Source of the DNA: a virus
DNA: 24,793 nt
Virus record (IMG/VR): IMGVR_UViG_3300027129_000023
Coordinates: 1-24,793 of that record
Reading direction: 5' to 3' (one strand)
Below, in pieces: positions 1,915 to 24,793 of this stretch. Under the pieces are notes generated by a model. That model did no database searches and was not told the DNA's origin. It saw only the letters and a list, made by a program, of their open reading frames with translations. The position numbers and the translations under genes were made by a program. Position 1 is the first letter of the stretch. Each line of letters opens with the position of its first letter.

Positions 1915-2659
1915 AGAACTCCAATCCCTACTCAATCTAAGTAAAGCTCTTAATCAAGAGCCTGATAGCGCTTTGTTAGAAGAAATTGAAGACCTATCAT
2001 CCCGTCAAGAAAAACTAAGAAAACGAATTAAAGAAAGTGTAGCTAAAGATTTAGCTCCAATATTTGAAGCTCCAAAGTATGAGCTTGATGATGGACCTTT
2101 AACAACCGAACAAGTAGAAAAGATTGAAGAAGTAGCAAAAGAAGAGATTGAAGAACCGATTACAATTGTTGAAGAACTCTTTCAAAAGAAAGAAACAGTG
2201 GTAGACAAAGTAGCGAGCTCTATTACAAGACAAGTACACCAAGAGGCAACATTAGTTAAACCAGACCCACAAATGCCAGCAGAGACTGCGGCACTAGAAC
2301 AAAAGTTAAAATATCTTGAAAACTGGGTTAGTCGAATTGCAGCTACTGGCCCTGGCGGTGGTGCTGCTCAGGTTTATAACCTCGACATGCCTACAAAACT
2401 AGTCACAACATCATCTTATACAATCGGTCGTAAAGATTACTATATTGGTGTCAACTACGCTGGCCTAAGTTATATTACGTTACCAACACAGAATTTATCC
2501 TCTGGCCGAGATGTTATTATTAAAGATGAATCGGGTAGATGTGAAGCATTTCCAATTACAGTGATTGGCAATGTTGACAATGATCCTGATGGTTTTAGAT
2601 TAGAAATTAACAACGGTGCAATTCATTTAATATACCGTGATGGATGGAGAATAGTATGA
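1901..2659 (+). CDS. Virion structural protein with coiled coil and beta C-domain
   Basis: A 252-residue protein in two parts. Residues 1-150 are highly charged, Glu/Lys-rich and coiled-coil-like (LSSRQEKLRKRIKESVAK), ending in the segment LEQKLKYLENWVSRI. After a Gly linker (GPGGGAAQ, about residues 149-156), residues 157-252 form a beta-rich domain with YIGVNYAGLSYITLP, GRDVIIKDESG and a terminal HLIYRDGWRIV. This layout resembles trimeric phage fibre proteins, in which a coiled-coil shaft carries a beta head. It overlaps the previous gene by 14 bases and the next by the 4-base ATGA. The exact virion location is not determinable. Confidence 0.65.
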   Translation: MDRLKELQSLLNLSKALNQEPDSALLEEIEDLSSRQEKLRKRIKESVAKDLAPIFEAPKYELDDGPLTTEQVEKIEEVAKEEIEEPITIVEELFQKKETVVDKVASSITRQVHQEATLVKPDPQMPAETAALEQKLKYLENWVSRIAATGPGGGAAQVYNLDMPTKLVTTSSYTIGRKDYYIGVNYAGLSYITLPTQNLSSGRDVIIKDESGRCEAFPITVIGNVDNDPDGFRLEINNGAIHLIYRDGWRIV

Positions 2660-3870
2660 CATATCTTTTCAAAGATAAAAACGAATATACCAGCAAGAAT
2701 CGTCTTAAAGTATCAAATTATCAAACTGATTTCTTTAACACATTTCAATACGGTAAAGAAACAGATGTCTGGGATGAAAGCACCACGTCTGGCGGCACAG
2801 CCACTTGGAACACTAATACCGACTGGATAGATATGGCAGTCGATGGGCAACTTGGATCTAAAGTCGTAAGACAAACTCGTAATGTGATGCGATACATTCC
2901 AGGTCGCAGTTCTAAGTTGACCTATGCTGTAAGATTTCAAACTCCTGTAACAGGGATACGAAGACGCATAGGACTATTTGATGAAAACAACGGGTTTTAC
3001 TTTGAAGATGCTGGAGTCTTAGGTTCCGATGGCTTACCTCAATACAATGTAGTAGTGCGTACCAGCACATCGGGTATGGTGGTTGAAAATCGTATACCTC
3101 GCAGTCAATGGAACGGCGATAAGTTGGACGGAACAGGTCGCAGTGGCATTATTGCTGATCCAACCAAAGCACAGATGGTAAGTTTTGAATATGAGTGGTA
3201 TGGTGCTGGACAGATCATTATTGGGTATGTGATCAACGGATCAACCCAGATCATCCACACGTTTAATCACGGTAATGTTACATCACTTCCCTGGAGTTCA
3301 ACACCGTTCTTGCCAATTAGGTTAGAGATAGAAAATTTGACAGGAGTAGCAGGCACGCACTACTTATATCAAGGATCCAACAGTCTTGTATCGGAAGGTG
3401 AAGCCACCAAATTGGGCATTGCACAAAACATTACTAACCCTATTGGAGGAACTAGAATGGCTGCGGCCAACACTTTTTATCCAATACTCAGTATTAGGTT
3501 AAAACCAAACGCATTAAAAGGTATTGTGTTACCCACATTCTTCCAGGCTGCTACTGTAGATAACACTAATGTATTTTACAAACTAATTCGTAATGCCACA
3601 TTGTCTGGCGCCAACTTTGTAAACATGCCGGATAGCAATGCATTTACACAGTTTGATACTAGTGCCACTACGTATACTAACGGCGTAGATCTTGACTCAG
3701 GATTCGTTATTGGTGGAGGCGGCACAAGTATTAGATTAGATGCAAATACCGTATATCAGATTGGCCGTGGCAACATGGGTACAACAAGCGACACTCTAAC
3801 ACTAGCCATATCTAGCCCCAATACTGGTAAAGATGCACTAGCTGCTATTACCTGGATTGAACAGAGATAA
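2656..3870 (+). CDS. Conserved virion structural protein, 404 aa
   Basis: I place the start at ATG 2656, inside the ATGA overlap with the previous stop; an ATG four codons upstream is possible but less typical. Residues about 60-230 carry a conserved beta-rich region with TPVTGIRRRIGLFDENNGFYFED, IPRSQWNGDKLDG and FEYEWYGAGQI. I recognise this as a structural protein family in T4-like cyanophages and other marine phages. The C-terminal third (LSIRLKP, VFYKLIRNATLSG) is also beta-like. No catalytic motif, signal peptide or membrane span. Its codon use is somewhat less AT-rich than that of the fibre genes downstream. Confidence 0.7.
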   Translation: MTYLFKDKNEYTSKNRLKVSNYQTDFFNTFQYGKETDVWDESTTSGGTATWNTNTDWIDMAVDGQLGSKVVRQTRNVMRYIPGRSSKLTYAVRFQTPVTGIRRRIGLFDENNGFYFEDAGVLGSDGLPQYNVVVRTSTSGMVVENRIPRSQWNGDKLDGTGRSGIIADPTKAQMVSFEYEWYGAGQIIIGYVINGSTQIIHTFNHGNVTSLPWSSTPFLPIRLEIENLTGVAGTHYLYQGSNSLVSEGEATKLGIAQNITNPIGGTRMAAANTFYPILSIRLKPNALKGIVLPTFFQAATVDNTNVFYKLIRNATLSGANFVNMPDSNAFTQFDTSATTYTNGVDLDSGFVIGGGGTSIRLDANTVYQIGRGNMGTTSDTLTLAISSPNTGKDALAAITWIEQR

Positions 3871-8724: not shown

Positions 8725-9375
8725 ATGATTGTTATATCCCAAAACGAAATAAAAATAAAACTTAACGGCACTACCTATAACCTTAAGAGTATACCATTCT
8801 TAGGTTTTAGTTATTCATATCTTAATTATGAACCAGAAGTAAATCTATACAGAAAGGTTGTTTTAAATTTTAATAATCAGTATGTATATGAAGATCTTAC
8901 TAATAATGATATCTTACTCATAGAAAAGTTTTTTAATGACTTGGATGATCCAGAAGTCTTATCTGATTTTTTAAATGAAAACGAAAAACGTTTAGAAACT
9001 GTTAATTTAAATACAAATAACACTTCATCAGTTACTCCTAAGCACGCTGTAGATGAAAACGGATTCTATGTTGGACAACAAGTCTTACCTAAAGATGGTC
9101 TAACAGAAGTTCCTTCTTTCCCTCCAAAAGATTTATATCTTGAACCGTTTGGTATCAGCTATAAGTGGGACAATTCAACTAATTCTTGGATTGTTAATGG
9201 AACCTATAAAGATAGACGAAAGTATCAATACTTAAATAGAACTACAGTAGGCGATCAACTAGACGCAATTATTTCTGCAATAGATGCGTTATCTAAAAAT
9301 GAAAGTTTACCAGATAAATTCAATCAACTCCTTTCAGAAATAGAAGCCATCAAACTATCAAATCCTAAGGACTAA
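8725..9375 (+). CDS. Probable tail fibre assembly protein
   Basis: A 216-residue acidic protein. The most telling part is near residues 163-216: KDRRKYQYLNRTTVGDQLDAI, followed by a helix and IEAIKLSNPKD. This matches the R-x-x-x-Y-x-x-x-x-x-GDQLDA-plus-terminal-PK pattern that recurs in small phage tail-fibre assembly or XkdW-like proteins. Residues 1-100 are mixed alpha/beta with an Asn-rich linker. It stands immediately before the glycine-rich adhesin gene, a usual place for a fibre chaperone. I infer a helper in folding or attachment of the neighbouring fibre proteins; a minor structural role is the alternative. Confidence 0.6.
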   Translation: MIVISQNEIKIKLNGTTYNLKSIPFLGFSYSYLNYEPEVNLYRKVVLNFNNQYVYEDLTNNDILLIEKFFNDLDDPEVLSDFLNENEKRLETVNLNTNNTSSVTPKHAVDENGFYVGQQVLPKDGLTEVPSFPPKDLYLEPFGISYKWDNSTNSWIVNGTYKDRRKYQYLNRTTVGDQLDAIISAIDALSKNESLPDKFNQLLSEIEAIKLSNPKD

Positions 9376-9377
9376 CA

Positions 9378-10106
9378 ATGACGTTACATGTTAAAAATTC
9401 GTCAGTCTTTAGACTCATCTGGAATGCCTATATAAAGATCTCAGGTCTTTGGAGAGAGGCTACTGTTGTCTATGTCAAGGATGCTGGAGTTTGGAGAGAA
9501 GTCCATAATGGTTATCCAGGACCTGGCTCACAAACATTTAATGTGTCAGGTACTTTTACAGTCCCAACTGGTGTTAATACCATTAGTGGAGTACTGTATG
9601 GTGGCGGTGGTGCAGGGGGTGGTAGTGGTTCACGAAACAGCTTTGATAATAACTCAGGTCGAGCAGCAGGTGGTGGCGGCGGTGGATCTGGACAACAAAG
9701 TTTTACAGTAGATGTAATTGGTGGTAGTAGTCATTTTGTACAAGTATCTGATGGTGGAGCTGCGCCTGGAGTAGGTGTTGGTGGTGGTGGTGCTGGAACT
9801 ACCTTTGTAGGAAGTTTATCCAGTATAGCTGCAGCTACAGCTGGCGAACCACCAACTCAGATTGGTGTTGGTAAAGGATCAACCGTACCAGGTGGCGTAG
9901 GTGGAGCTGGAATAGCTGGTGGTGCAGCTGGTAATCAGGGAGCTACAAATACTAATTCAGGTAACTTTGGAAACTCAGGTCCTGGTGGTAACGGAGGATC
10001 TGGGGGAGTTGGCACTGGTGGACTTGGTGGTCAGACTGTAGGGTTTGACGGTGGTGGTTCTGGTGGAGCTGCAGGAAATGCTGGAAGGGTAGTTATAAAC
10101 TGGTAA
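9378..10106 (+). CDS. Glycine-rich tail fibre tip adhesin
   Basis: A 242-residue protein. Residues 1-45 hold two copies of a short tryptophan motif (SGLWREATVVYVKDAGVWREV), a likely attachment segment. Residues 52-75 (QTFNVSGTFTVPTGVNTIS) are the start of the Gly_rich_2-type domain. From about residue 75 to 235 the chain has many glycine runs (GGGGAGGGSG, GGGGGGSG, GGNGGSGG) and closes with AGRVVINW. This resembles distal adhesins such as gp38 of T2/S16-type phages, in which polyglycine-II helices carry variable loops that touch the receptor. Likely a determinant of host range. It lies between two probable assembly chaperones, ending in a TAATG overlap with the second. Confidence 0.7.
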   Translation: MTLHVKNSSVFRLIWNAYIKISGLWREATVVYVKDAGVWREVHNGYPGPGSQTFNVSGTFTVPTGVNTISGVLYGGGGAGGGSGSRNSFDNNSGRAAGGGGGGSGQQSFTVDVIGGSSHFVQVSDGGAAPGVGVGGGGAGTTFVGSLSSIAAATAGEPPTQIGVGKGSTVPGGVGGAGIAGGAAGNQGATNTNSGNFGNSGPGGNGGSGGVGTGGLGGQTVGFDGGGSGGAAGNAGRVVINW

Positions 10107-10579
10107 TGAGAACCTGGGCAGAAATTTCTTTTGGTATTGTGCGATATGTATTTGAAGCACCTGTGGCACCTTTGGGTCAACCTGGTGTATATTATCATGA
10201 TGTAACAGATTATGATCCTGTGCCAGAAATATTTGATGAATATAATCCATCTACTAGGACGTTTGCTAAACCTCTTAGCAACGATCCAAATGATACGCAT
10301 AATCTACAAGTAGCATGGATAGGTGTTCGTAATACTCGCAATACAGCTTTGAATCTAAGTGATTATACTCAGATGCCGGATTTTCCGGATAAGATTATGC
10401 AAAAGCGTTACAGGAAATACAGACAGGAACTAAGAGACATACCCGAACGACATTCTAGTCCATACAGAATACCGTTTCCAACTGAACCGTATAAAACTGA
10501 GATAAAATTAACTTTTTGGGAAAAACTTCAATATGTTTGGTCATACATCAAAAACGGAAAAAATATTCGTAGTAGATAA
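10106..10579 (+). CDS. Tail fibre assembly chaperone (Phage_tail_APC-like)
   Basis: A 157-residue protein. Residues about 72-112 carry RNTALNLSDYTQMPDFPD, then YRKYRQELRDIPER. This matches the R-N-x-L-L-x-x-SDWTQ-x-PD and YRQALRD-x-P pattern of the phage tail assembly/attachment chaperone family. The N-terminal 65 residues are probably a beta-structured specificity part. The start overlaps the adhesin stop (TAATG), which suggests that it helps fold or attach that adhesin. Its last 47 bases overlap the next gene in another frame, unusually long for this window. Confidence 0.65.
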   Translation: MRTWAEISFGIVRYVFEAPVAPLGQPGVYYHDVTDYDPVPEIFDEYNPSTRTFAKPLSNDPNDTHNLQVAWIGVRNTRNTALNLSDYTQMPDFPDKIMQKRYRKYRQELRDIPERHSSPYRIPFPTEPYKTEIKLTFWEKLQYVWSYIKNGKNIRSR

Positions 10580-11078
10580 TGCCATTGATTATAGTAACCA
10601 AGAAGCTCTGTTTAACTTTTGTAAGAACAGTCTCTACAGTTTTGGTCATGGTGCAAGTTCAGTAAGCTCAATCGATCTTAGTAGATTTATTTGTAACCTA
10701 ACAGCAGAAGAATTATCTCGCACTGGGTTAGATAAACTATTTGAAGGTCTAGTTAAAAAATACAAGAACAAAAATGTTCGTATAGACCGTAGTTATATCA
10801 ATGTATACTTTCCTTATACTCCAACTGGTATGCACACAGATGATAACGATAAAGATGCTATATCATTTTTAGCTTATGCTAACCCTCAGTGGAATTTAGA
10901 TTGGGCAGGTGAAACTCAATTCTTTACTTCAGACTTATCTAAAGTAGAACAAAGTGTATTGCCAGAGGGTGGTAGAGTCATTGTATTTGATTCCAACATA
11001 CCACATACAGCTAGGAGTCCTGCAGTCATCTGTCCTGTTCCTAGATTTACTGTCACAATCAAAGGATTTTTAGTATGA
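10533..11078 (+). CDS. 2-oxoglutarate/Fe(II)-dependent oxygenase
   Basis: A 181-residue double-stranded beta-helix oxygenase. It shows the iron-binding HxD at H101-T-D103 (GMHTDDND), a GETQFF strand near residue 126, the distal histidine H158 (SNIPHTARSP) and R171 (PRFTVTIKG) for 2-oxoglutarate. Enzymes of this superfamily hydroxylate proteins, nucleic acids or small molecules; the substrate here cannot be read from sequence. It starts 47 bases inside the preceding chaperone gene (the only ATG upstream of the conserved fold) and ends in an ATGA overlap with a second oxygenase. Confidence 0.8.
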   Translation: MFGHTSKTEKIFVVDNAIDYSNQEALFNFCKNSLYSFGHGASSVSSIDLSRFICNLTAEELSRTGLDKLFEGLVKKYKNKNVRIDRSYINVYFPYTPTGMHTDDNDKDAISFLAYANPQWNLDWAGETQFFTSDLSKVEQSVLPEGGRVIVFDSNIPHTARSPAVICPVPRFTVTIKGFLV

Positions 11079-12407: not shown

Positions 12408-13448
12408 ATGAGCTTATACATTGACGTCAAATATCTAGGATTTATCGGTAATAGATTACCACTCTTTAAACGCAAGGGTGAATACCTCTATAACTGCAGG
12501 TGTATAATATGTGGTGATAGTCAGAAAAAGAAGAATAGAGCTCGTGGTTACTTTTATCGCCAAACCAATGATCTATTCTATAAGTGTCACAATTGTGAGG
12601 CTAGCCAACACTTTGGTACATTCCTAAAGACCTTTGATCAACAGCTATACCGTGAATATGCATTAGAACGATATGCTAATGGTGAGAATAAGAAAGCACA
12701 TGCAACATTAGATGACGAATTTAAAAGTCACTTTAAAGAACCAACCTTCTTTAAAGAAGCACCAGATCCAAATAAAATACCTGACATTTTTAGTAAGGTA
12801 ATTGATCAGCCTATAGATTCAGAGGTTAGAAAGTTTTGTAGTGATAGACAAATACCTACTCTAGCTTTGGAGCGACTTTGGTTTGTTGATGATATTAAGA
12901 AAGTAGAATCACTTAATGACAGATATGAAAATACAATTCAAAGCCATGAACCTAGATTAGTGATACCATTTAAAAATAAAGATGGTAAGTTAATTGGAGT
13001 ATCTTGCAGAGGACTTCGAGGTGAGTCATTAAGATACATTACGGTTCGTATTGATGAAAGCGATTCATTAGTATTTGGTATAGACCAAATTAACTCTCAA
13101 GAATTAGTCTATGCAGTTGAAGGTCCGATAGATAGTCTATTCTTACCTAATGCAATAGCTGTCGGTGGTACTGGATTTAATAAAATAGATCAGTTAGAAC
13201 TAAACAAAGATAAACTAATTCTTGTTTTAGACAATCAACCAAGAAACAAAGAAGTCTGTTCTGTCTATAATAAACTTATTACTAAAGGCTATAAAATAAT
13301 GATATGGCCTGATTATACCGATGCAAAAGATATAAATGATCTAGCATTACTTGGAACAAAAGGTGAAGAACTAAGGAAGTTTATTGAAATAAATAGTTAC
13401 AAAGATCTTACAGCTCAAATGAAATTTAACACATGGAAAAAAGTATAA
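12408..13448 (+). CDS. 61: DNA primase, T4 gp61 type
   Basis: A 346-residue protein, close to the 342 of T4 gp61. In T4 this enzyme, bound to the gp41 helicase, makes the pentaribonucleotide primers of the lagging strand. The N-terminal zinc ribbon is visible as CRCIICGDSQ (C30, C32, C35) and YKCHNCEA (C60, C63), with the T4-like KNRARGYFY between. The TOPRIM catalytic core follows: AVEGPIDSLFLPNA with E238, and LVLDNQPRN with D275. The start aligns with the T4 protein. The stop overlaps the thyX start (TAATG), linking primer synthesis with thymidylate supply. Confidence 0.9.
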   Translation: MSLYIDVKYLGFIGNRLPLFKRKGEYLYNCRCIICGDSQKKKNRARGYFYRQTNDLFYKCHNCEASQHFGTFLKTFDQQLYREYALERYANGENKKAHATLDDEFKSHFKEPTFFKEAPDPNKIPDIFSKVIDQPIDSEVRKFCSDRQIPTLALERLWFVDDIKKVESLNDRYENTIQSHEPRLVIPFKNKDGKLIGVSCRGLRGESLRYITVRIDESDSLVFGIDQINSQELVYAVEGPIDSLFLPNAIAVGGTGFNKIDQLELNKDKLILVLDNQPRNKEVCSVYNKLITKGYKIMIWPDYTDAKDINDLALLGTKGEELRKFIEINSYKDLTAQMKFNTWKKV

Positions 13449-14146
13449 TGTCAATAGCACGCCTAGTATCATATTCACAACCAGCAGAAGACTTTGTCAG
13501 TCGCGATGAAGTTAGGGACATCCAAGAATTAGTAGCCTATTGTGCTAGAGTATCAAATCCTGGCAATCAAACTAATTCGGAGACAGCTTCCAAGTTATTA
13601 AAATATATGATTAAGCACAAACACTGGTCACCATTTGAAATGGTAAATGTTTGTATGGAAATCACAACAACAAGAGATATCGGTCGTCAGATTTTAAGAC
13701 ATCGTTCTTTTTCATTCCAAGAATTCAGCCAAAGATACGCAGATCCTACAGATGCAGGTTCTGGTTTAGATTATTCTATTAGAGAATGTAGGTTACAGGA
13801 TCCAGTGAATAGACAGAATTCTGTTCCTGTTGATCCTGATAACATAGAACAAAAATACTTAGAACACTTGTGGATCAAGAAGCAGCAAGAATTGGTGTCA
13901 CTTTGTGACGAAACCTATAAATGGGCTATTAAAAATGGCATAGCAAAAGAGCAAGCAAGAGCAGTTTTGCCAGAAGGTTTAACTAATAGTCGTATGTATA
14001 TTAATGGAACTTTACGTTCATGGATCCATTATATTGAGGTTAGAGATGGGAATGGAACACAAAAAGAACACATGCAAATAGCTCAAGAATGTGCGAAAGT
14101 TATAGTAAAAATTTTCCCATTATTGCAAGAAACAAAATCTGAATAA
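13448..14146 (+). CDS. thyX: Flavin-dependent thymidylate synthase ThyX
   Basis: I start it at ATG 13448 (TAATG overlap with the primase stop) rather than at an in-frame ATG 15 bases upstream inside the primase gene; this gives 232 residues. It converts dUMP to dTMP using methylenetetrahydrofolate, NADPH and FAD. The ThyX signature RHRSFSFQEFSQRY is at residues 84-97 (RHR-x7-S). Other family blocks are HWSPFEMVN near residue 59, ARAVLPEGLTNSRMYINGTLR in the C-terminal half and the following WIHYIEVR. The protein is full-length for the family. It probably feeds dTMP to AT-rich phage DNA synthesis alongside NrdA/NrdB. Confidence 0.95.
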   Translation: MSIARLVSYSQPAEDFVSRDEVRDIQELVAYCARVSNPGNQTNSETASKLLKYMIKHKHWSPFEMVNVCMEITTTRDIGRQILRHRSFSFQEFSQRYADPTDAGSGLDYSIRECRLQDPVNRQNSVPVDPDNIEQKYLEHLWIKKQQELVSLCDETYKWAIKNGIAKEQARAVLPEGLTNSRMYINGTLRSWIHYIEVRDGNGTQKEHMQIAQECAKVIVKIFPLLQETKSE

Positions 14147-16587: not shown

Positions 16588-17181
16588 GTGGATACCAAAA
16601 CTATAAGTAATAATCTTGCACACCTTATGGTTGCAACTGATGTTCTATTCTCTAATGAAGAGGTAGATAAAATTATAGCACAAGGTATCAAACTCCAAGC
16701 TGAAGAAGCGATTGTTAATACTAAAGAAGAAAGCACAGTAAAACATTCGACTCGTACTTGTAAGATAGGTTGGTTCTATCCTAACGAAGATACAAATTGG
16801 CTCTTTAATAAAATGATAGATCTCATTGGCAACATTAATGAAAATTATTTTAAGTTTGATCTTAATCAGTTTGAACCATTACAGTTTACAAGCTATGATA
16901 GTAGTCGTAAAGAGTTTTACGGAAAGCACATGGATTGCTCTATGGGTATTCCTCATGCAACAGCAAGTCGTAAATTAAGTATTACATTACAACTTAGTGC
17001 TGCAGATGAATATGAGGGTGGAGATCTTTTACTCTACCAATCAAAAGATCCTGCTACTGCACCTAAGAAAAAAGGTCAGTTAGTAGTATTTCCTAGTTAT
17101 GTATTACATGAAGTAACGCCAGTTACAAAAGGTACAAGATATAGTTTAGTAACTTGGGTCCACGGACCAATGTTTAGGTGA
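16588..17181 (+). CDS. 2OG-Fe(II) oxygenase, PKHD-hydroxylase-like
   Basis: A 197-residue oxygenase starting at GTG 16588 directly after the nrdA stop, with GAGGG a few bases before; an in-frame ATG at 16627 is the alternative. The iron ligands are H114-M-D116 (YGKHMDCSMG) and H174 (FPSYVLHEVTPVT), and R184 (TRYSLVTW) binds 2-oxoglutarate. Blocks RKLSITLQLS and EGGDLLLY complete the prolyl/PKHD-type fold. Substrate not readable from sequence. It is the third oxygenase of this superfamily in the window and the most canonical. Its position directly behind nrdA and before nrdB suggests co-expression with nucleotide metabolism. Confidence 0.85.
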   Translation: MDTKTISNNLAHLMVATDVLFSNEEVDKIIAQGIKLQAEEAIVNTKEESTVKHSTRTCKIGWFYPNEDTNWLFNKMIDLIGNINENYFKFDLNQFEPLQFTSYDSSRKEFYGKHMDCSMGIPHATASRKLSITLQLSAADEYEGGDLLLYQSKDPATAPKKKGQLVVFPSYVLHEVTPVTKGTRYSLVTWVHGPMFR

Positions 17182-17185
17182 TAAT

Positions 17186-17755
17186 ATGAAAGTTGGATTT
17201 AATTGTTCTAGCTTTGATTTGTTACATGCTGGTCATGTTACAATGTTAAAGATGGAAAAAGAAATGTGTGACTACTTGAAGGTAGCATTACAAGTAGATC
17301 CTACAATAGATAGACCTGGAGTTAAAAATAAACCAGTCCAATCAATTTATGAACGGTATGTTCAGTTACAAGCATGTAAGTATGTTGATGAGATTTTAGT
17401 TTATGATACAGAAGCTGAGCTTCTAAACTTAATCCAAACACAAACAATACACATAAGGTTTTTGTCCGAGGAATACCTAAATCGAGATTTCACGGGCAAA
17501 CAATACTGTATCGATCGAGGTATAGAGCTATTCTATCATCCAAGAGAACATACATACAGCAGTTCAGATTTAAGAAACAGAACATATGACCTCGAGAAGT
17601 TGAAAAAAGACCAGCTCGATGATGAAGTTCCACAACACTCACCAGAATTAATTAAGGAAAATACACCGCATGAAAAAGAACCTAACCCTTTTGGCTTTAC
17701 TCCTACTACTACCACTAAGCCTCGCCGCAAAAACAATAGAAGGAAAAATACATAA
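17186..17755 (+). CDS. Cytidylyltransferase-like nucleotidyltransferase
   Basis: A 189-residue protein of the HxGH nucleotidyltransferase superfamily, most like glycerol-3-phosphate or choline-phosphate cytidylyltransferases (TagD type). Nucleotide-binding motif H14-A-G-H17 (FDLLHAGHV), the ERYVQLQACKYVDEI helix near residues 56-70 and a C-terminal YSSSDLR (124-130) matching the S-x-S-x-x-[LI]-R motif. It would join a phosphorylated alcohol or sugar to CMP; the substrate is uncertain. Residues 135-189 are a charged, disordered extension (TTTTKPRRKNNRRKN) beyond the usual roughly 130-residue core, and its last 86 bases overlap the signal peptide region of the next gene. Confidence 0.8.
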   Translation: MKVGFNCSSFDLLHAGHVTMLKMEKEMCDYLKVALQVDPTIDRPGVKNKPVQSIYERYVQLQACKYVDEILVYDTEAELLNLIQTQTIHIRFLSEEYLNRDFTGKQYCIDRGIELFYHPREHTYSSSDLRNRTYDLEKLKKDQLDDEVPQHSPELIKENTPHEKEPNPFGFTPTTTTKPRRKNNRRKNT

Positions 17756-18111: not shown

Positions 18112-19092
18112 ATGACAACAAAATACAAACTTACCGAAACAAGAGATTTCTTCAAGCCTTTTAGTTATCCATGGGCATATGAAGCTTGGCTTAAGCACGA
18201 ACAAAGTCACTGGCTTCATTCAGAAGTTCCAATGATGGAAGATGTTAAGGATTGGAAGAAGAAACTGACTGATGAAGAAAAGAAGTTTTTAACTAATATC
18301 TTTAGATTCTTTACACAAGGTGACATCGATGTTGCTGGAGGATATGTTAAAAACTATCTACCTTACTTTCCACAGCCAGAAATTAGAATGATGTTAATGG
18401 GATTTGCTGCACGCGAAGCATTACACATTGCAGCATATAGTCACTTGATTGAGACTTTAGGGATGCCTGAGTCAACTTATAATGAATTTCTACAATATCA
18501 AGAAATGAAGGATAAGCACGACTATGTTACAGAACTCAGTTCGAAAAATGGTGACAAAGAGTCAACTGCAGCACACATCGCCGTCTTCAGTGCTTTTACG
18601 GAGGGCATGCAGCTTTTTAGTAGCTTTATTATGCTTCTTAATTTTCCTCGCCATGGTTTAATGAAAGGCATGGGTCAGATTGTGACCTGGTCTATTGTTG
18701 ACGAAACTCAGCATGCTGAAAACATGATTAAATTATTTAGAGAATATATTAAAGAAAATAATGAAATTTGGAATGATCAACTAAAATCTCGTATATATAC
18801 AATAGCAGAAAAGATGGTTGAGTTAGAGGATAAGTTTATTGACTTATCATTCTCTGGTTCAGACATGAGAGATCTAAAATCAGAAGATGTAAAAGAATAT
18901 ATCAGATACATTGCTGATCGACGTCTAATTAGTCTTGGCATGAAGGGTATTTTTAAACGCAAAAAGAATCCTCTACCTTGGGTAGAAGAGATGATTAATG
19001 CACCAGTTCATAGTAACTTTTTTGAAGCAAGATCAACTGATTATGCTAAAGGTTCATTGACTGGTAAATGGGAAGGTGACGTTTGGGCTTAA
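18112..19092 (+). CDS. nrdB: Ribonucleotide reductase class I small subunit NrdB
   Basis: I start it at ATG 18112, one base after the nuclease stop, rather than at the in-frame ATG 18082 inside the nuclease gene; this gives 326 residues. NrdB houses the diiron-tyrosyl radical that NrdA uses. Ligands and radical site are readable: E102-x-x-H105-x-x-x-Y109 (REALHIAAY) with Y109 as the radical tyrosine, E164 (FTEGMQLF), and E198-x-x-H201 (IVDETQHAEN); an acidic ligand lies in the HSEVPMMEDV segment (about 36-45). The retained tyrosine argues for a classical radical enzyme. The C-terminus (GKWEGDVWA) should dock on NrdA. Confidence 0.93.
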   Translation: MTTKYKLTETRDFFKPFSYPWAYEAWLKHEQSHWLHSEVPMMEDVKDWKKKLTDEEKKFLTNIFRFFTQGDIDVAGGYVKNYLPYFPQPEIRMMLMGFAAREALHIAAYSHLIETLGMPESTYNEFLQYQEMKDKHDYVTELSSKNGDKESTAAHIAVFSAFTEGMQLFSSFIMLLNFPRHGLMKGMGQIVTWSIVDETQHAENMIKLFREYIKENNEIWNDQLKSRIYTIAEKMVELEDKFIDLSFSGSDMRDLKSEDVKEYIRYIADRRLISLGMKGIFKRKKNPLPWVEEMINAPVHSNFFEARSTDYAKGSLTGKWEGDVWA

Positions 19093-19093
19093 A

Positions 19094-19939
19094 ATGAGAG
19101 ATATGATAACCGTCGCTTCAATGCAACGGAATGAAGAAAAATATATTTTAGAATGGATGGCCTACTACCTCTTACAGGGGGTAGATAGATTTGTCATTTA
19201 CAATCACATGAGTGAAGACGGCACAGAAGGACTCTGGCGCCGTCTTGCTCGTCATTATCACATCGAAATACATAATCGCGAAGGATATAATGTTCATTAT
19301 CCAATGCTTGAGCATGCTCTAACTGAAGTCTTACCTACAACAGATTGGTTAGTCTTCGCTGATATGGATGAGTTTTATTTTCCATTAGACCGCTTTACAT
19401 TAAGAGAAGTTCTTGAAGAACGAAAAGATTGGAACTGTTCTGCGTTTGGAGTCTATTGGTGTCAGTTTGGATCTAGTGGATATATAGATGATCCAGAATT
19501 AGTCTTACAAAGTTATGAACATCGTGGTCCTTTAAACTTAAGTACTAACCATCACATGAAGTCTATCGTAAAAGGTAGAGGACTTGCTGGTAAAGTTTCA
19601 GGCACTAATCCTCATGTCTTTACAACAGAATTTGGAACATTAGACTTCTGGGGTAGAGAAATTCCACCTCATGCAGGGCACAATGCAGGAGTTGAACCTT
19701 GTCATGAAGTGATGAGACTTAATCATTACCAATGTAAAAGTTTAGAGTATTTTAAAACTAAGAAGCAAGCAAGAGGATCAACAGCAGATCGTCCACCTGA
19801 AGCTCCAGGCGCTCAGATCCCAGATTCAGTATTTCATGACTATGATCACAACGAAGTGTTTGACAATAGTGCGTGGGTAAAGTATGGTTTCCAATTGAAA
19901 AACAAAATCCTTGAATTGAAAGAGAAGATAAATTTATGA
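19094..19939 (+). CDS. Glycosyltransferase, GT92/GT2-like fold
   Basis: I start it at ATG 19094 right behind the nrdB stop rather than at the ATG inside nrdB; this gives 281 residues. The N-terminus carries MQRNEEKYILEWMAYYLLQGV and FVIYNHMSEDGT, typical of the family formerly called DUF23/GT92. The metal- and nucleotide-sugar-binding D90-M-D92-E93 (LVFADMDEFYFP) is intact. RLNHYQCKSLEYF in the C-terminal half is another family block. No membrane span, so cytoplasmic. Likely transfers a sugar to a host or phage glycan; donor and acceptor unknown. It opens the glycan gene run, with an ATGA overlap to the next transferase. Confidence 0.8.
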   Translation: MRDMITVASMQRNEEKYILEWMAYYLLQGVDRFVIYNHMSEDGTEGLWRRLARHYHIEIHNREGYNVHYPMLEHALTEVLPTTDWLVFADMDEFYFPLDRFTLREVLEERKDWNCSAFGVYWCQFGSSGYIDDPELVLQSYEHRGPLNLSTNHHMKSIVKGRGLAGKVSGTNPHVFTTEFGTLDFWGREIPPHAGHNAGVEPCHEVMRLNHYQCKSLEYFKTKKQARGSTADRPPEAPGAQIPDSVFHDYDHNEVFDNSAWVKYGFQLKNKILELKEKINL

Positions 19940-20604
19940 TAATTCTAGCCACAATCCACGATCAAAACTACCGAGCCCTAGCAGACGAAACATGGGAAAA
20001 TAATAAAGTCCAATATGCAGAGAAGCATGGCTATGGATATCTAGCTAAGACAGATGACTTTTATGGCTTTCCTCCAGGCTTTGAAAAGATACAATTCTTA
20101 ATTGATACTTTAGATGAGTATCCAGACATTGAATGGATTTGGTGGACAGGAACAGACTCAATGGTCACAAACTTCAATACTAGAATTGAAGATAAGATTA
20201 AAGAAGTCCCAGAAGGTGTTAATATCATTATGAGTGCAGACTTCAATTTCGCAATCAATTGTGATAGCATCTTAATTAAGAATACAAAAGAAGCTAAAGA
20301 GTGGTTACAAGATATTATGGATCACATGCCAGAATATAAAGACCACCAATATAAAGAACAACAGTACATGCTAGACTCAGCAACAACATATACTGACATC
20401 ATGGAGATCATGCCTCAGAATTTTATGAACAGTTATGAGTATAAGATGTATAAGGTTCCACCATGGAATTACATGGAAACTGTTGACGTTCATGGTGAAC
20501 GTGGTCAGTGGGAAGAAGGTGACTGGTTGGTTCATTGGCCAGGCACACAACCATTAGAACGTAAGGAATTGGTAGAGGAATTTAAGAAAAAAATTATTTA
20601 TTAA
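19936..20604 (+). CDS. Glycosyltransferase, GMA12/MNN10 (GT34)-like
   Basis: A 222-residue protein. It shows the GT34-like pattern WIWWTGTDSMVTNF (residues 67-80) with a DxD-type aspartate D74, a central INCDSILIKN block, and GDWLVHWPGTQPL near the C-terminus, where the HWPG motif is characteristic of this family (alpha-galactosyl, xylosyl or mannosyl transferases). No membrane anchor. It overlaps the preceding transferase by ATGA, so the two probably add successive sugars to the same glycan. Donor sugar is not predictable. Confidence 0.75.
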   Translation: MIILATIHDQNYRALADETWENNKVQYAEKHGYGYLAKTDDFYGFPPGFEKIQFLIDTLDEYPDIEWIWWTGTDSMVTNFNTRIEDKIKEVPEGVNIIMSADFNFAINCDSILIKNTKEAKEWLQDIMDHMPEYKDHQYKEQQYMLDSATTYTDIMEIMPQNFMNSYEYKMYKVPPWNYMETVDVHGERGQWEEGDWLVHWPGTQPLERKELVEEFKKKIIY

Positions 20605-20614
20605 TGGGGTTATA

Positions 20615-21952
20615 ATGAGTAAAGAAAATATATTGAGTTTGATTGAAGAGTTTGTGAAAGAAAAGAATGCTGCCAAGACCTGGACAGCAGGAAAAGATTT
20701 CGTTAATTATGCTGGTCCATATTATGATCATCAAGAAATAATAGCTGCAGCAAGCACACTTCTTGATGGTTGGTTAGTGATGGGCAAAGATTGTCTCAGA
20801 TTTGAAAACAAATTTCCAAAATACTTAGGTAAAGAGCATGGCGTCCTAACTAATTCAGGATCGTCAGCCAACTTACTTATGATGACTGCTCTTAAAAGTA
20901 AGAGAGGTCATAACTTCCCCCCGGGCACGAAAGTGCTCATGCCCATTGCAGGGTTCCCTACCACACTCAACCCCACCCTGCAAGCGGGCTTCATTCCTGT
21001 GTTTCTTGATATTGAATATGAAACACTAAACCTTGATCTTGAGAAAGCAGAAGACTTACTTAAGAAACATGACATTAAAGTAATTACATTCGCACACGTA
21101 TTAGGTAATTGTCCTAATATGGATCAACTAATGGACTTAGTTAAGAAGTATAACTTAGTTCTATTAGAAGATTGTTGTGATGGATTAGGTTCAACCTATG
21201 ATGGAAAACTACTAGGATCATTCGGTGAAATGTCATCATGCTCATTCTATCCTGCACATCATATTACTATGGGTGAAGGTGGCTTTGTTGCATGTAGTGA
21301 TAAGAATACAGAAACGATTGTACGTTCTCTAAGAGAATGGGGTCGTGGTTGCTATTGTGTAGGACCAGAAGCTAACAAATTGAAATGTGGAACATGTGGC
21401 AAACGATTTGATAACTGGTTACCATCTATGCCAAATGAAATCTTTGATCACAAGTATGTCTATGATGAGATTGGTTACAACTTAAAACCAATTGAGCTTC
21501 AAGCATCTATGGGTCTTAAACAAATCGACAAACTAGAAGAGATTGGTAAGCTACGTCGTCGTAACTATCAATTGTTATTTAATATCTATGAGAAGTATGA
21601 GGAGTTCTTCTATCTACCAAGAGCTAGAGCTAAATGTGATCCAGATTGGTTTGCTTTCCCTCTTACTATTAGAAAAGATGCTCCATTCAAGAGAGCTGAG
21701 ATTGTAGATTACTTAGAAGAGAATTTAATTCAAACTCGACCATACTTTGCTGGTAACATTATGTTACAACCAGCTTATTCTGATTATGTTAATACACCTA
21801 TGTTATCAATGGAGTCATTACATAACGACTTCCCTGTAGCTAATCATGTTACAACTCATACTTATTTCCATGGCACAAGTCCTGTTATTACTCCAGAACA
21901 AATTGCCTATATAGGAGACAGGGTTGATGGTTTTATGAGTTTGTATCTATGA
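20615..21952 (+). CDS. rfbH: RfbH-type 3-dehydrase (E1) of 3,6-dideoxysugar synthesis
   Basis: A 445-residue DegT/DnrJ-fold enzyme. The usual PLP lysine is replaced by histidine in the signature PAHHITMGEGG (H215-H216), the hallmark of CDP-4-keto-6-deoxyglucose 3-dehydrase (E1). A cysteine group C246-x-C248-x9-C258-x2-C261 in GRGCYC and KCGTCGKRFD matches the iron-sulfur loop of E1 and separates it from ColD, which lacks the cluster. TNSGSSANLL binds the cofactor phosphate, and EDCCDGLGS holds the conserved aspartate. E1 removes the C3 hydroxyl using PMP and the cluster, normally with an E3 reductase, not seen here. The start at 20615 follows GGGGTT. An 88-base GC-rich patch lies inside (see findings). 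ATGA overlap with the next gene. Confidence 0.9.
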   Translation: MSKENILSLIEEFVKEKNAAKTWTAGKDFVNYAGPYYDHQEIIAAASTLLDGWLVMGKDCLRFENKFPKYLGKEHGVLTNSGSSANLLMMTALKSKRGHNFPPGTKVLMPIAGFPTTLNPTLQAGFIPVFLDIEYETLNLDLEKAEDLLKKHDIKVITFAHVLGNCPNMDQLMDLVKKYNLVLLEDCCDGLGSTYDGKLLGSFGEMSSCSFYPAHHITMGEGGFVACSDKNTETIVRSLREWGRGCYCVGPEANKLKCGTCGKRFDNWLPSMPNEIFDHKYVYDEIGYNLKPIELQASMGLKQIDKLEEIGKLRRRNYQLLFNIYEKYEEFFYLPRARAKCDPDWFAFPLTIRKDAPFKRAEIVDYLEENLIQTRPYFAGNIMLQPAYSDYVNTPMLSMESLHNDFPVANHVTTHTYFHGTSPVITPEQIAYIGDRVDGFMSLYL

Positions 21953-22575
21953 CGGTTGATGAATTAAAACAATTCGAGAAGGATATTGGAGATAGCTTTA
22001 ATCGAGCAGAGATTAAAGCTCCAATCCATTTATATGATGGTAATGAAGAACAGATATTAGAAGTCTTTAAGCTCATTGATATAAAGAATGATTGGATATG
22101 TGCTACATGGCGTAACCATTATCAGTGTCTTCTAAAGGGTGTGCCTCCAGAATATTTAAAAGAAAAGATTCTTGAAGGTAAGAGCATGGTCATGAATCTT
22201 CCTGAATATAAAATTCATTGCTCAAGTATTGTTGGTGGCATTCCATCTATTGCTGTTGGTTTAGCTGCTGCAGCTAAATTAAGAAACACTGGCGAAAAGG
22301 TTTGGTGCTGGGTTGGTGATATGTCTGCTGAAACTGGAGCATTTCACGAAGCATTAAAGTATGCCAGAGCTCAAAAATTACCTATTACATTTGTTATTGA
22401 AGATAATGAACTATCTGTCGAGACTCCAACAAAAGAAGTTTGGGGTGACGATAAGTGGTATATAAAAAATCCAAAAGTTCACGGTCGCTATGTCACAGAT
22501 GAAAATCTAATCTATTACCACTACAAGAATGCAAAGTATCCACATGCTGGAGCTGGAGTGAGGGTACAATTTTGA
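21949..22575 (+). CDS. Thiamine-diphosphate enzyme, alpha (E1-alpha-like) subunit
   Basis: A 208-residue protein resembling the PP-binding domain of the pyruvate dehydrogenase E1 alpha subunit. Visible: CATWRNHYQCLLKGVP (residues 51-66) as in the substrate-channel region, SSIVGGIPSIAVGLAAAAK (92-110), and the ThDP/Mg motif G123-D-M through D152-N153 (WVGDMSAETG to VIEDNELSV). It is much shorter than the usual 330-370 residues. With the beta gene, whose start overlaps its stop, it probably forms a two-subunit enzyme. In this sugar cluster it may transfer a two-carbon acetyl unit from pyruvate to a ketosugar, as AviB1/AviB2 and YerE do, rather than belong to a central-metabolism complex. Confidence 0.82.
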   Translation: MTVDELKQFEKDIGDSFNRAEIKAPIHLYDGNEEQILEVFKLIDIKNDWICATWRNHYQCLLKGVPPEYLKEKILEGKSMVMNLPEYKIHCSSIVGGIPSIAVGLAAAAKLRNTGEKVWCWVGDMSAETGAFHEALKYARAQKLPITFVIEDNELSVETPTKEVWGDDKWYIKNPKVHGRYVTDENLIYYHYKNAKYPHAGAGVRVQF

Positions 22576-23111
22576 TTAATCGCAACCAAGTTTATAATGA
22601 AAAACTAGTAGAAGCTATGAAGTATCTTAATACTAAAAAGGATACTTTGTTTATTGGCCAGGCTGTAAGATATGCAGGAACTGGTATGTTTAATAGTCTA
22701 CTTGAAGTAGATGATCACAAGAAGATAGAATTTCCTGTTGCAGAAAACTTTCAAATGGGTTACTGCACAGGATTAGCTTTAAATGGATTTTGTCCAATTG
22801 CTATCTATCCTCGATGGAATTTTTTACTCTGTGCTGCAGATCAAATTGTTAATCACTTAGATAAACTTTATAACATGAGTAGTGGCAAAGTAACACCTAA
22901 GATGATTATTAGAGTAGCGGTTGGTACTGAGATCCCTGTTGATCCACAAGACCAACACAAAGGCAATTTTGCTAATGCATTTAGAAGTATGTTAAAGACA
23001 GTAGATGTAATTGAACTTAATCATTCCGATGACATTGTAGATGCTTACAGACATGCTTATAGATCAAAGTATTCAACTATCATTGTAGAATTCCCTGATT
23101 ACGGAAAATAA
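22572..23111 (+). CDS. Thiamine-diphosphate enzyme, beta (E1-beta-like) subunit
   Basis: A 179-residue protein matching the pyrimidine-binding domain of E1 beta/transketolase. The start is TTG 22572, overlapping the alpha stop, with GGAG and GAGGG a few bases upstream; the first ATG would lose 15 conserved-looking residues (NQVYNEKLVEAM). E58 in FPVAENFQMGYCTGLAL is the expected glutamate that activates the thiamine pyrimidine ring. IAIYPRWNFLLCAADQIVNHL and the VDPQDQHKG loop fit the domain. The C-terminal transketolase domain of normal E1 beta (about 330 residues) is absent. It likely pairs with the preceding subunit. Confidence 0.8.
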   Translation: MINRNQVYNEKLVEAMKYLNTKKDTLFIGQAVRYAGTGMFNSLLEVDDHKKIEFPVAENFQMGYCTGLALNGFCPIAIYPRWNFLLCAADQIVNHLDKLYNMSSGKVTPKMIIRVAVGTEIPVDPQDQHKGNFANAFRSMLKTVDVIELNHSDDIVDAYRHAYRSKYSTIIVEFPDYGK

Positions 23112-23875
23112 TGGATATAGTCATCACTGGAGCTTCGGGTGTTGTTGGTAAAATTCTTACCATGCATTTGTCTCCATGGCACAATGTAATACCTTTAAAT
23201 GGTCACAATGAAGTAGACCTAATGGACCCTACTTCTGTTGATAACTTTTTCTTTGCAAGAAGGTTTAATGCTGTAATTCACTGTGCTGTTGCAGGTGCGA
23301 AGGATGTTAATGATACAAGTCCAAGTATCACACATAGAAATTTAACTATGTATGAAAACATTAAGCGAAATTACAATGGGTTTGATAAGCTAATTAATAT
23401 AGCTTCTGGATGTGAATTAGGGTATGGCGGCAATAAACAAGAAATTGAATTGAGAAATCAATTACCAGTTACACCTTATGGATTAAGCAAAAACTTAATA
23501 GCAAGAGATGTGATGAAGCAGGTTGAATGGCATAACCTAAGACTCTATGGACTTATTTCCAATACGAGAGTCTTTTGGAAAGTATGGGATCTTGCTAACA
23601 AAGGTGAGAAGGAAATAGAGATAGTAGATAAGTACATGGACTATATATCAGAAGATGATATGGTGAAGGTAGTGAGATACTTTGTTGAAAACCACTACAT
23701 TCCAGAAAAAGATGTCAATATGGTTTACCAAGAAAAGAAAAAAGTATCGGAAGTTCTTAAAGAATATATAAAAGATCACAATCTTGATATTGAAGTTAAA
23801 GTAACACAAACGGCTCCAAGTAGTGAAGACTACACTGGAGATGGATATAGATTAGCTAGGATGAATATTTTATGA
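23111..23875 (+). CDS. NAD(P)-dependent sugar reductase/epimerase (extended SDR)
   Basis: A 254-residue short-chain dehydrogenase. The nucleotide-binding G7-A-S-G10-V-V-G13 lies at the N-terminus, S99 in IASGCELGYGG is the catalytic serine region, and Y123-G-L-S-K127 is the catalytic YxxxK. The short length and simple C-terminus suggest a ketoreductase or epimerase rather than a 4,6-dehydratase. It follows the ThDP pair with a TAATG overlap and precedes a dehydratase gene, so a reduction of a keto-sugar, for example the acetyl-branched intermediate, is a reasonable inference. Cofactor choice and exact substrate cannot be read. Confidence 0.8.
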   Translation: MDIVITGASGVVGKILTMHLSPWHNVIPLNGHNEVDLMDPTSVDNFFFARRFNAVIHCAVAGAKDVNDTSPSITHRNLTMYENIKRNYNGFDKLINIASGCELGYGGNKQEIELRNQLPVTPYGLSKNLIARDVMKQVEWHNLRLYGLISNTRVFWKVWDLANKGEKEIEIVDKYMDYISEDDMVKVVRYFVENHYIPEKDVNMVYQEKKKVSEVLKEYIKDHNLDIEVKVTQTAPSSEDYTGDGYRLARMNIL

Positions 23876-24793
23876 CAAAAGTTGTTTATGTAACAGGATG
23901 TTGTGGCTTCATTGGATACTATGTTGCCAAGGCTTGCCTAGAACAAGGCTGGCATGTTATGGGTGTAGATAAATTAACCTATGCTGCTAATCAAGATAGA
24001 ATTTCAGATCTTTATGAAATTGCAGATAAAGAAAATGTTAAGTTTGAATTTATTCAGTCAGACATTAATGATCTAGAACGATTGGTAGAATGCGATTATG
24101 TTATTAATACAGCAGCAGAAACTCACGTAGATAATTCTATTGAAGCTTCTGATGTATTCTTAAGATCTAATGTTAATGGTGTTCATCACTTATTGAAACT
24201 AATCCAAAACAAACAGTATGGAATGCCAACTCTTTTACACTTTTCTACTGATGAAGTCTATGGAGATATTGATGACGGTAGCTTCAATGAAGATCATTTA
24301 TTAAAACCATCCAATCCATATTCAGCAACAAAGGCTGCAGCAGATCAACTCGTTCTTGCTTGGGCAAGAACACACAATGTACCTTTTATTATTGTACGAC
24401 CAACTAACAATTATGGATCTGGTCAATATGTGGAAAAGCTAATTCCTAAAGCTGTGAAGTATTTACAATTAGGTAGAAAGATTCCTCTTCACTTAGGAGG
24501 TAGCCCTGTTAGAACGTGGCTACATGTGGAAGATACAGCAGCTGCTGTAATGCATATTATTAATAATGGATCTATTAATCAAATCTATAACATTCCAGGT
24601 AACTTTGAGGCTTCAAACTTATTTGTAGTCACTGAAGTAGTGAAGGCAATGTACGGTGATGATGTTGGCCAAGATGTGCAGGAATTTATTAATACAGATT
24701 ATGAACGACCAGGTGCTGATCTTAGATACAGTATCGATGGAAGTAAGCTAAAAAATATTGGATGGGAAGCAAGACGTGAATTCATTCCTGAGC
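23872..24793 (+). CDS. rfbB: dTDP-glucose 4,6-dehydratase-like (partial, cut at window end)
   Basis: The N-terminal 307 residues of an extended SDR that runs beyond the right edge. Family blocks: GCCGFIG (residues 9-15) for NAD, DKLTYAANQDRI, AAETHVDNSIE, STDEVYGD (S125-D132) with the T126-D127-E128 catalytic set, Y150-S-A-T-K154, RPTNNYGSGQYVEKLIP, RTWLHVEDTA and ERPGADLRY. These match dTDP-glucose 4,6-dehydratase (RfbB) rather than the CDP-glucose enzyme RfbG. It would make the 4-keto-6-deoxy precursor of deoxysugars. Its start overlaps the preceding stop as ATGA, placing it in the same run. Confidence 0.88.
   Translation, partial: MTKVVYVTGCCGFIGYYVAKACLEQGWHVMGVDKLTYAANQDRISDLYEIADKENVKFEFIQSDINDLERLVECDYVINTAAETHVDNSIEASDVFLRSNVNGVHHLLKLIQNKQYGMPTLLHFSTDEVYGDIDDGSFNEDHLLKPSNPYSATKAAADQLVLAWARTHNVPFIIVRPTNNYGSGQYVEKLIPKAVKYLQLGRKIPLHLGGSPVRTWLHVEDTAAAVMHIINNGSINQIYNIPGNFEASNLFVVTEVVKAMYGDDVGQDVQEFINTDYERPGADLRYSIDGSKLKNIGWEARREFIPE

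Follow-up and report, generated by a model that had tools for sequence, protein, structure and literature searches.

Background

What might a phage make with genes for a deoxysugar 3-dehydrase, the two halves of a thiamine diphosphate (ThDP) enzyme and a reductase, all in overlapping frames? This question is raised by a gene cluster in the IMG/VR virus record IMGVR_UViG_3300027129_000023, of which positions 1 to 24,793 were analyzed as a single stretch of DNA (hereafter the window). A sequence-only reading of this stretch had proposed a route to a two-carbon-branched 3,6-dideoxysugar. The open reading frames (ORFs) concerned proved genuine and belong to a run of seven genes on the same strand, which extends from 19076 to beyond the window end; most junctions in this run overlap by 1-4 bases, and its sole gap, of 10 bases, lies before the 3-dehydrase gene. 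The source of the window is a T4-like aquatic phage; a virion structural protein encoded at 2644-3870 shows about 56% identity to marine T4-like cyanophages. The five genes that concern us here, the last of which is an addition to those originally listed, are as follows:

20615..21952, + strand: RfbH/E1-type, pyridoxamine 5'-phosphate- and [2Fe-2S]-dependent nucleotide-sugar 3-dehydrase, 445 residues (PRK15407, 3bcx_A)
21949..22575, + strand: ThDP enzyme alpha subunit, E1-alpha-like PP domain, 208 residues (E1_dh, 2e-16)
22572..23111, + strand: ThDP enzyme beta subunit, E1-beta-like Pyr domain only, 179 residues, TTG start (PRK09212, 7.5e-14)
23111..23875, + strand: short extended-type short-chain dehydrogenase/reductase (SDR), RmlD/epimerase-like, with a YGLSK motif (PF01370, Epimerase, 3e-13)
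23872..24792, + strand: dTDP-glucose 4,6-dehydratase-like SDR, cut by the window end (TIGR01181, PDB 2hun)

The RfbH/alpha and alpha/beta junctions each overlap by 4 bases and the beta/SDR junction by 1 base, in agreement with the order of overlapping E1-alpha-like, E1-beta-like and SDR genes first described. We consider it probable that this cluster is a phage-encoded nucleotide-sugar branch, which yields a C2-branched 3,6-dideoxysugar by means of the alpha/beta pair.

A 3-dehydrase of the RfbH/E1 type

The first of these proteins matches the NCBIfam RfbH model PRK15407 with 438.3 bits, above the curated cut-off of 423, and its alignment with the solved E1 structures 3bcx/3bb8 is full-length (~1e-100; 3bcx_A, 2e-100). 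As the sequence-only reading had noticed, the site of the lysine that would carry pyridoxal 5'-phosphate is occupied by a histidine (His215, motif FYPAHHI), and the four [2Fe-2S] cluster cysteines have their counterparts in Cys188, 246, 248 and 261. Across viral DegT-fold homologs histidine takes the place of the active-site lysine in all 111 sequences, and 93 sequences retain all four cluster cysteines.

An E3 reductase and a nucleotidylyltransferase had been expected past position 24793, and this expectation was disappointed. A phage contig (L001), a 99.7% match to the final 4.4 kb of the window that continues for 3.7 kb more, carries ordinary phage genes past the cluster, for example those for a SegE-type GIY-YIG nuclease and a 5'-3' exonuclease. 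None of the genes scanned in the window or L001 encodes an E3, and PF00970 was found in none of 20 large related viral contigs, all of which are possibly incomplete. Likewise, no sugar nucleotidylyltransferase was present in the cluster or in the scanned genes of L001, 3.7 kb beyond the window, and the hexose-1-phosphate nucleotidylyltransferase family (PF00483) was seen in 4 of the 20 large contigs. Given that this enzyme is usually not encoded, the starting nucleoside diphosphate (NDP)-sugar probably comes from the host.

The lack of E3 in the large contigs would also suit a different explanation, namely that the RfbH-like enzyme is an aminotransferase and that the ThDP pair branches a sugar which is not 3-deoxy, since SpnQ, the 3-dehydrase of the spinosyn pathway, performs glutamate-dependent transamination when without a reductase (PMC8987622). 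However, E1 and ColD showed no transamination under such conditions (PMC8987622), and the universal histidine together with the cysteines kept in 93 sequences also argues for deoxygenation, making this explanation quite unlikely. SpnQ in fact works with ferredoxin or flavodoxin reductases instead of E3 (PMC8987622), which shows that E3 is not obligatory. With E3 missing from the encoded set, the putative electron source is a host ferredoxin or flavodoxin reductase, a SpnQ-like use with which the absence of E3 is compatible.

RfbH is also present without the ThDP pair in some phages, so the dependence is one-way. In some viral modules RfbH is replaced by a third lysine-less DegT subtype (hereafter ASH), with the motif TSFYASHxITAGG, no cluster cysteines and 29-31% identity to RfbH (loci L057, L061, L062, L023 and others), whose best solved relatives are E1 and ColD. 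Separately, Synechococcus phage ACG-2014f (L278, 2098-5215) has consecutive Gmd-, Fcl- and ColD-like genes, including one for a lysine-less DegT protein, which are annotated as hypothetical protein and epimerase and likely specify a colitose-type pathway in cyanophages.

A truncated E1-type ThDP pair

The alpha and beta proteins carry the PP and Pyr domains, respectively, on separate E1-fold subunits. Alpha recovers the pyruvate dehydrogenase (PDH) E1-alpha model with 81.7 bits versus 38 for transketolase, while beta gives a weak match to Transket_pyr (2e-4) and is E1-beta-like by PRK09212 (7.5e-14). AlphaFold (AF2) models were built for the single subunits, so the fold matches are per chain: the alpha model (predicted local distance difference test, pLDDT, 86.5) matches human PDH E1-alpha (1ni4_A) with a Z-score of 18.0 and a root-mean-square deviation of 2.9 over 199 aligned residues, above its Z of 14.3 against the split transketolase 6yak, and the beta model (pLDDT 83.2) matches 1um9_B and 1ni4_B, both at Z 20.6. 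Both chains are short. Alpha covers residues 37-271 of the 362 of E1-alpha and is missing the tail, whereas beta matches E1-beta up to about residue 179 of about 325 and is missing the whole C-terminal domain. As this short length is common to all relatives, it represents a fixed architecture and not a broken gene.

In alignments, D124 and N153 of alpha fall at the positions of the Mg ligands E193 and N222 in branched-chain 2-oxo acid dehydrogenase (BCKDH), and E58 and H129 of beta at those of E59 and H128 in PDH-beta. All four are unchanged in 88 of 88 viral sequences, and the bacterial sequences are equally invariant except at position 124, which is Glu in 24 of 61. Hence, the loss of ThDP-binding residues that was flagged at the outset as speaking against the proposal is not seen in these alignments, and the invariance of the ThDP/Mg and catalytic residues rules out decay of the pair. 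The pair constitutes a large undescribed subfamily with invariant ThDP residues.

The same data bear on another idea, in which the pair represents part of a pyruvate or branched-chain 2-oxo acid dehydrogenase, whether functional or decayed, and alters host central metabolism. Although the top profile relatives are indeed PDH E1-alpha and E1-beta, both chains fall far below the PDH E1 equivalog cut-offs (alpha 81.7 versus 393.85 bits; beta 51.4 versus 321), and E2 docking in 2-oxo acid dehydrogenase complexes is the task of the E1-beta C-terminal domain, which is missing here. The scanned genes of the window and L001 include no E2 or E3 family, sugar genes pervade the genomic context, and the conservation of the catalytic residues speaks against decay, so that this idea is scarcely credible.

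Linkage in viral and bacterial genomes

The short pair was recovered in at least 312 contigs from viruses and, on the bacterial side, in at least 118 genomes or genomic stretches, and the genes of the cluster recur in about 70 other viral loci with alpha 60-77% identical, which rules out a chance gene cluster. Linkage was assessed in 59 viral loci with enough flank, after removal of near-copies; gene calls in these genome-wide scans are simple ORF calls, and virus records may be incomplete. A 4,6-dehydratase is encoded in 58 of these loci, an SDR in 56 and a lysine-less DegT-fold protein within 7 kb of the pair in 53, the last being the four-cysteine RfbH form in 45 cases and ColD-like or the ASH variant in the others. 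Five of the six loci lacking a DegT protein nearby have an all-cysteine RfbH further along the contig (one via the near relative L071), and the sixth is a 10.6-kb fragment. The T4-type major capsid protein (Gp23) is encoded by 11 of the 20 largest contigs, and all but one of these 11 exceed 160 kb. A plasmid search for the pair returned ordinary E1 enzymes only (best 36% identity).

In 39 bacterial loci the pathway is different, with HddA in 34, a B12 radical SAM protein in 31 and HddC in 28, as well as GDP-fucose-synthase-like genes; 33 of the 39 encode a lysine-less 3-dehydrase that is ColD-like, its closest solved relative being ColD. Thus, in two nucleotide-sugar contexts the pair follows a lysine-less 3-dehydrase, and this partner common to the viral and bacterial routes points to a 4-keto-3-deoxy acceptor, for which it is the chief argument, and to C2 branching as the reaction. 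As background, DegT proteins in 12 of these bacterial genomes comprise 33 with lysine versus 3 with histidine, in a sample biased to high profile scores that favors the lysine type, and at least 2 of these 3 are linked to the pair. The bacterial carriers (L078-L157) include Nitrospira, Pelagibacteraceae, SAR116, SAR86, Verrucomicrobia, Burkholderiales and cyanobacteria, and their clusters of the pair with HddA, HddC, the B12 radical SAM protein and the ColD-like enzyme are candidates for a GDP-linked branched deoxyheptose route to surface glycans.

These heptose genes (HddA 34/39, HddC 28/39) could instead suggest that the pair is a minimal split transketolase-like enzyme, engaged in ketol (hydroxyacetyl) transfer or in making sedoheptulose-type precursors, which would furnish a hydroxyacetyl branch or serve a heptose pathway. 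Fused cyanophage relatives of the pair are in fact annotated as 'transketolase central region' and lie beside phosphoheptose isomerase, and split-gene transketolases have been proposed for miharamycin branching (PMC12247030). Yet both sequence (81.7 versus 38 bits) and fold (Z 18 versus 14.3 for 6yak) mark the pair as E1-type, and heptose genes are nearly absent from the viral loci (GmhA 1/59, HddC 1/59), leaving a transketolase-like role unlikely.

In a quick tree with long outgroup branches, whose rooting was not used, three groups separate: the viral alphas (SH-aLRT 93), the short alphas of bacteria (95) and the full-length E1 proteins. The pair therefore does not fall into a family with an unrelated proven reaction, the outcome that would have told against the initial proposal, but into a clade outside ordinary E1, itself without a proven reaction. 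As the viral alphas group apart, the viral form was not recently acquired from any sampled bacterium. A search for AviB1-like proteins in 395 actinobacterial genomes gave E1 matches of at most 39% identity, with no identified AviB reference, and a simple homology scan found no sugar genes in 6 of the 7 best regions. In the seventh (L245, genome G181, 8938-10786), an E1 pair of 294 and 328 residues lies in a cluster of sugar genes, one of them for a lysine-type DegT protein; this may be an unrelated system for branching surface glycans.

We give roughly even odds to a broader proposal, in which a minimal split ThDP carboligase subfamily of bare PP and Pyr domains, widespread and undescribed, is dedicated to C-branching of 4-keto-3,6-dideoxy sugars, with T4-like aquatic phages carrying a self-contained module (4,6-dehydratase, 3-dehydrase, carboligase pair and ketoreductase) and a sister clade serving bacterial surface glycans via a GDP-heptose-like route.

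The SDR and 4,6-dehydratase genes

The SDR gene stands directly 3' of the beta gene in 72 of 88 viral loci. Its sequence is highly variable (27-36% identity), with position and the YxxxK motif retained, the latter in 72 of 73 homologs. It is probably a ketoreductase, and its variability could reflect differing stereochemistry of the branch. The 4,6-dehydratase-like gene is complete in L001 (3451-4416) and encodes 321 residues. The full-length protein scores 289.9 bits with TIGR01181, under the cut-off of 365.1, compared to 60.4 with the CDP model, and its best PDB matches are all annotated as dTDP-glucose 4,6-dehydratases (2hun, 3e-67); the TDE dehydration motif and YxxxK are present in 82 of 82 viral relatives. 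As the dehydratase is of the dTDP type, a dTDP sugar is more likely than a CDP sugar.

A proposed pathway

The families of the enzymes, their catalytic residues, the linkage of the genes and the truncation of the ThDP subunits are shown above; on this basis we infer a pathway, including its substrate, donor, step order, product and destination. The 4,6-dehydratase would convert an NDP-sugar, probably host dTDP-glucose, to NDP-4-keto-6-deoxyglucose, from which the RfbH-type enzyme would strip the C3 hydroxyl with electrons supplied, as for SpnQ, by host ferredoxin or flavodoxin reductases. The minimal alpha/beta pair would form a ThDP site between its PP and Pyr domains, decarboxylate a 2-oxo acid, probably pyruvate, and add the acyl anion at the C4 ketone, so that a 3,6-dideoxysugar with a two-carbon branch results. 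The SDR would then reduce the branch ketone to a hydroxyalkyl group, producing a yersiniose-like sugar that glycosyltransferases may place on a glycan, either of the virion or of the infected cell. Full-length E1-type pairs carry out such a C2 transfer in the paulomycin pathway and its relatives (PMC4802897, PMC4753412), and KbDH-alpha/beta transfers C2 units onto ketone sugar analogs in vitro (PMC12247030).

Several points weigh against this pathway. The C2-branching role is a prediction from sequence, fold and linkage for every member of the subfamily, and the phage pair is without the E1-alpha tail and the E1-beta C-terminal domain, both of which known C2-branching pairs appear, judged by length, to keep. 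Known RfbH enzymes act on CDP sugars, whereas the linked dehydratase is of the dTDP type, and a structure-database search found no close solved relative of the SDR. Finally, fused relatives in the cultured cyanophages S-SM2 and P-TIM68 (~38% identical) belong to heptose-like clusters that have no 3-dehydrase, and other acceptors may hence be used in the wider superfamily. The branched 3,6-dideoxysugar route remains the best-supported reading, with the corrections that the pair is not of the YerE type, that the dehydratase is dTDP-like rather than CDP-like and that neither E3 nor a nucleotidylyltransferase follows in the neighboring sequence scanned.

Flanking genes

Two further genes of the run precede the 3-dehydrase gene:

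19076..19939, + strand: glycosyltransferase, GT92/Glyco_tranf_2_4-like (Pfam PF13704, 4e-15; PF01697, 2e-11)
19936..20604, + strand: glycosyltransferase, GT34-like (Pfam PF05637, 1.5e-23)

GT34-like genes are found near 16 of the 59 viral loci, the window copy ending 10 bases 5' of the RfbH gene. As genes of the GT92-like type are seen near 3 of the 59, this one is an accessory gene that may belong to the glycan module. Encoded a few genes before the sugar cluster, a CTP_transf_like protein (17186-17755), nearest to the HldE adenylyltransferase domain (56.1 bits) and glycerol-3-phosphate cytidylyltransferase (40.6), both below cut-off, might activate a sugar or polyol phosphate. The phage NrdA/NrdB genes are adjoined by those for a 2OG-Fe(II) oxygenase (16588-17181) and a thymidylate-synthase-family protein (13433-14146).

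Significance

C-branched tertiary-alcohol sugars are chemically rare, and E1-type enzymes that make them are known mainly from the biosynthesis of actinobacterial antibiotics. A 2025 review names viruses as unexplored for such enzymes (PMC12247030), and our literature searches for a branched octose in phages found nothing. If the proposed pathway is correct, the compact phage form, abundant in IMG/VR, would provide structural biology and biocatalysis with a small carboligase of two chains. Phages could then decorate virions or infected cells with sugars possibly missing from their hosts, a capability relevant to receptor change, superinfection exclusion and escape from host defences. Because a 3-dehydrase accompanies the pair so closely in two unrelated pathways, its substrate is open to direct testing.

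Comparison with known systems

The predicted logic resembles that of the yersiniose A pathway of Yersinia pseudotuberculosis VI (E1/E3, YerE, YerF) in its 4,6-dehydration, E1-type C3 deoxygenation, ThDP-dependent C2 branching at C4 and reduction of the branch ketone. However, that pathway uses CDP sugars and a dedicated E3, in contrast to the dTDP-type dehydratase of the phage cluster and its lack of E3, and YerE, originally cited as a model for the pair, is a single-chain flavoprotein of the acetolactate-synthase/decarboxylase type (PMC4425429, PMC12247030). As the phage enzyme consists of two short E1/alpha-KADH2-like chains without a TPP_enzyme_N or M match, homology to YerE is ruled out. 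SpnQ resembles the phage 3-dehydrase in being E1-like, carrying a [2Fe-2S] cluster and having no dedicated E3, and it acts on a dTDP-linked substrate, as the phage enzyme probably does (PMC8987622); it differs in that it works on a 2,6-dideoxy sugar and has no ThDP branching enzyme as partner. The fused alpha-beta proteins of PHROG 34187 (the S-SM2 and P-TIM68 relatives), which alpha and beta match at 8.6e-44 and 2.9e-27, have the same two domains and are also truncated; they differ in being a single chain, in a heptose-like cluster, with no 3-dehydrase or RmlB-SDR pair nearby.

The alpha-KADH2 branching pairs of antibiotic pathways (AviB1/AviB2, Pau11/Pau12 = Plm8/Plm9, EvdU5/EvdS3 and KbDH-alpha/beta; reviewed in PMC12247030, PMC4802897) are likewise two-subunit E1-type ThDP enzymes encoded beside 4-keto-deoxysugar genes, and take their C2 donor from pyruvate, the same donor as is predicted for the phage pair. 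They are longer (Pau11 and Pau12 have 325 and 345 residues; PMC4425429) and come from actinobacterial antibiotic clusters, unlike the phage pair of 208 and 179 residues in a phage glycan cluster. The likeness to AviB1/AviB2 suggested at the start hence holds as an E1-type, two-subunit analogy, of which the phage pair is a truncated form.

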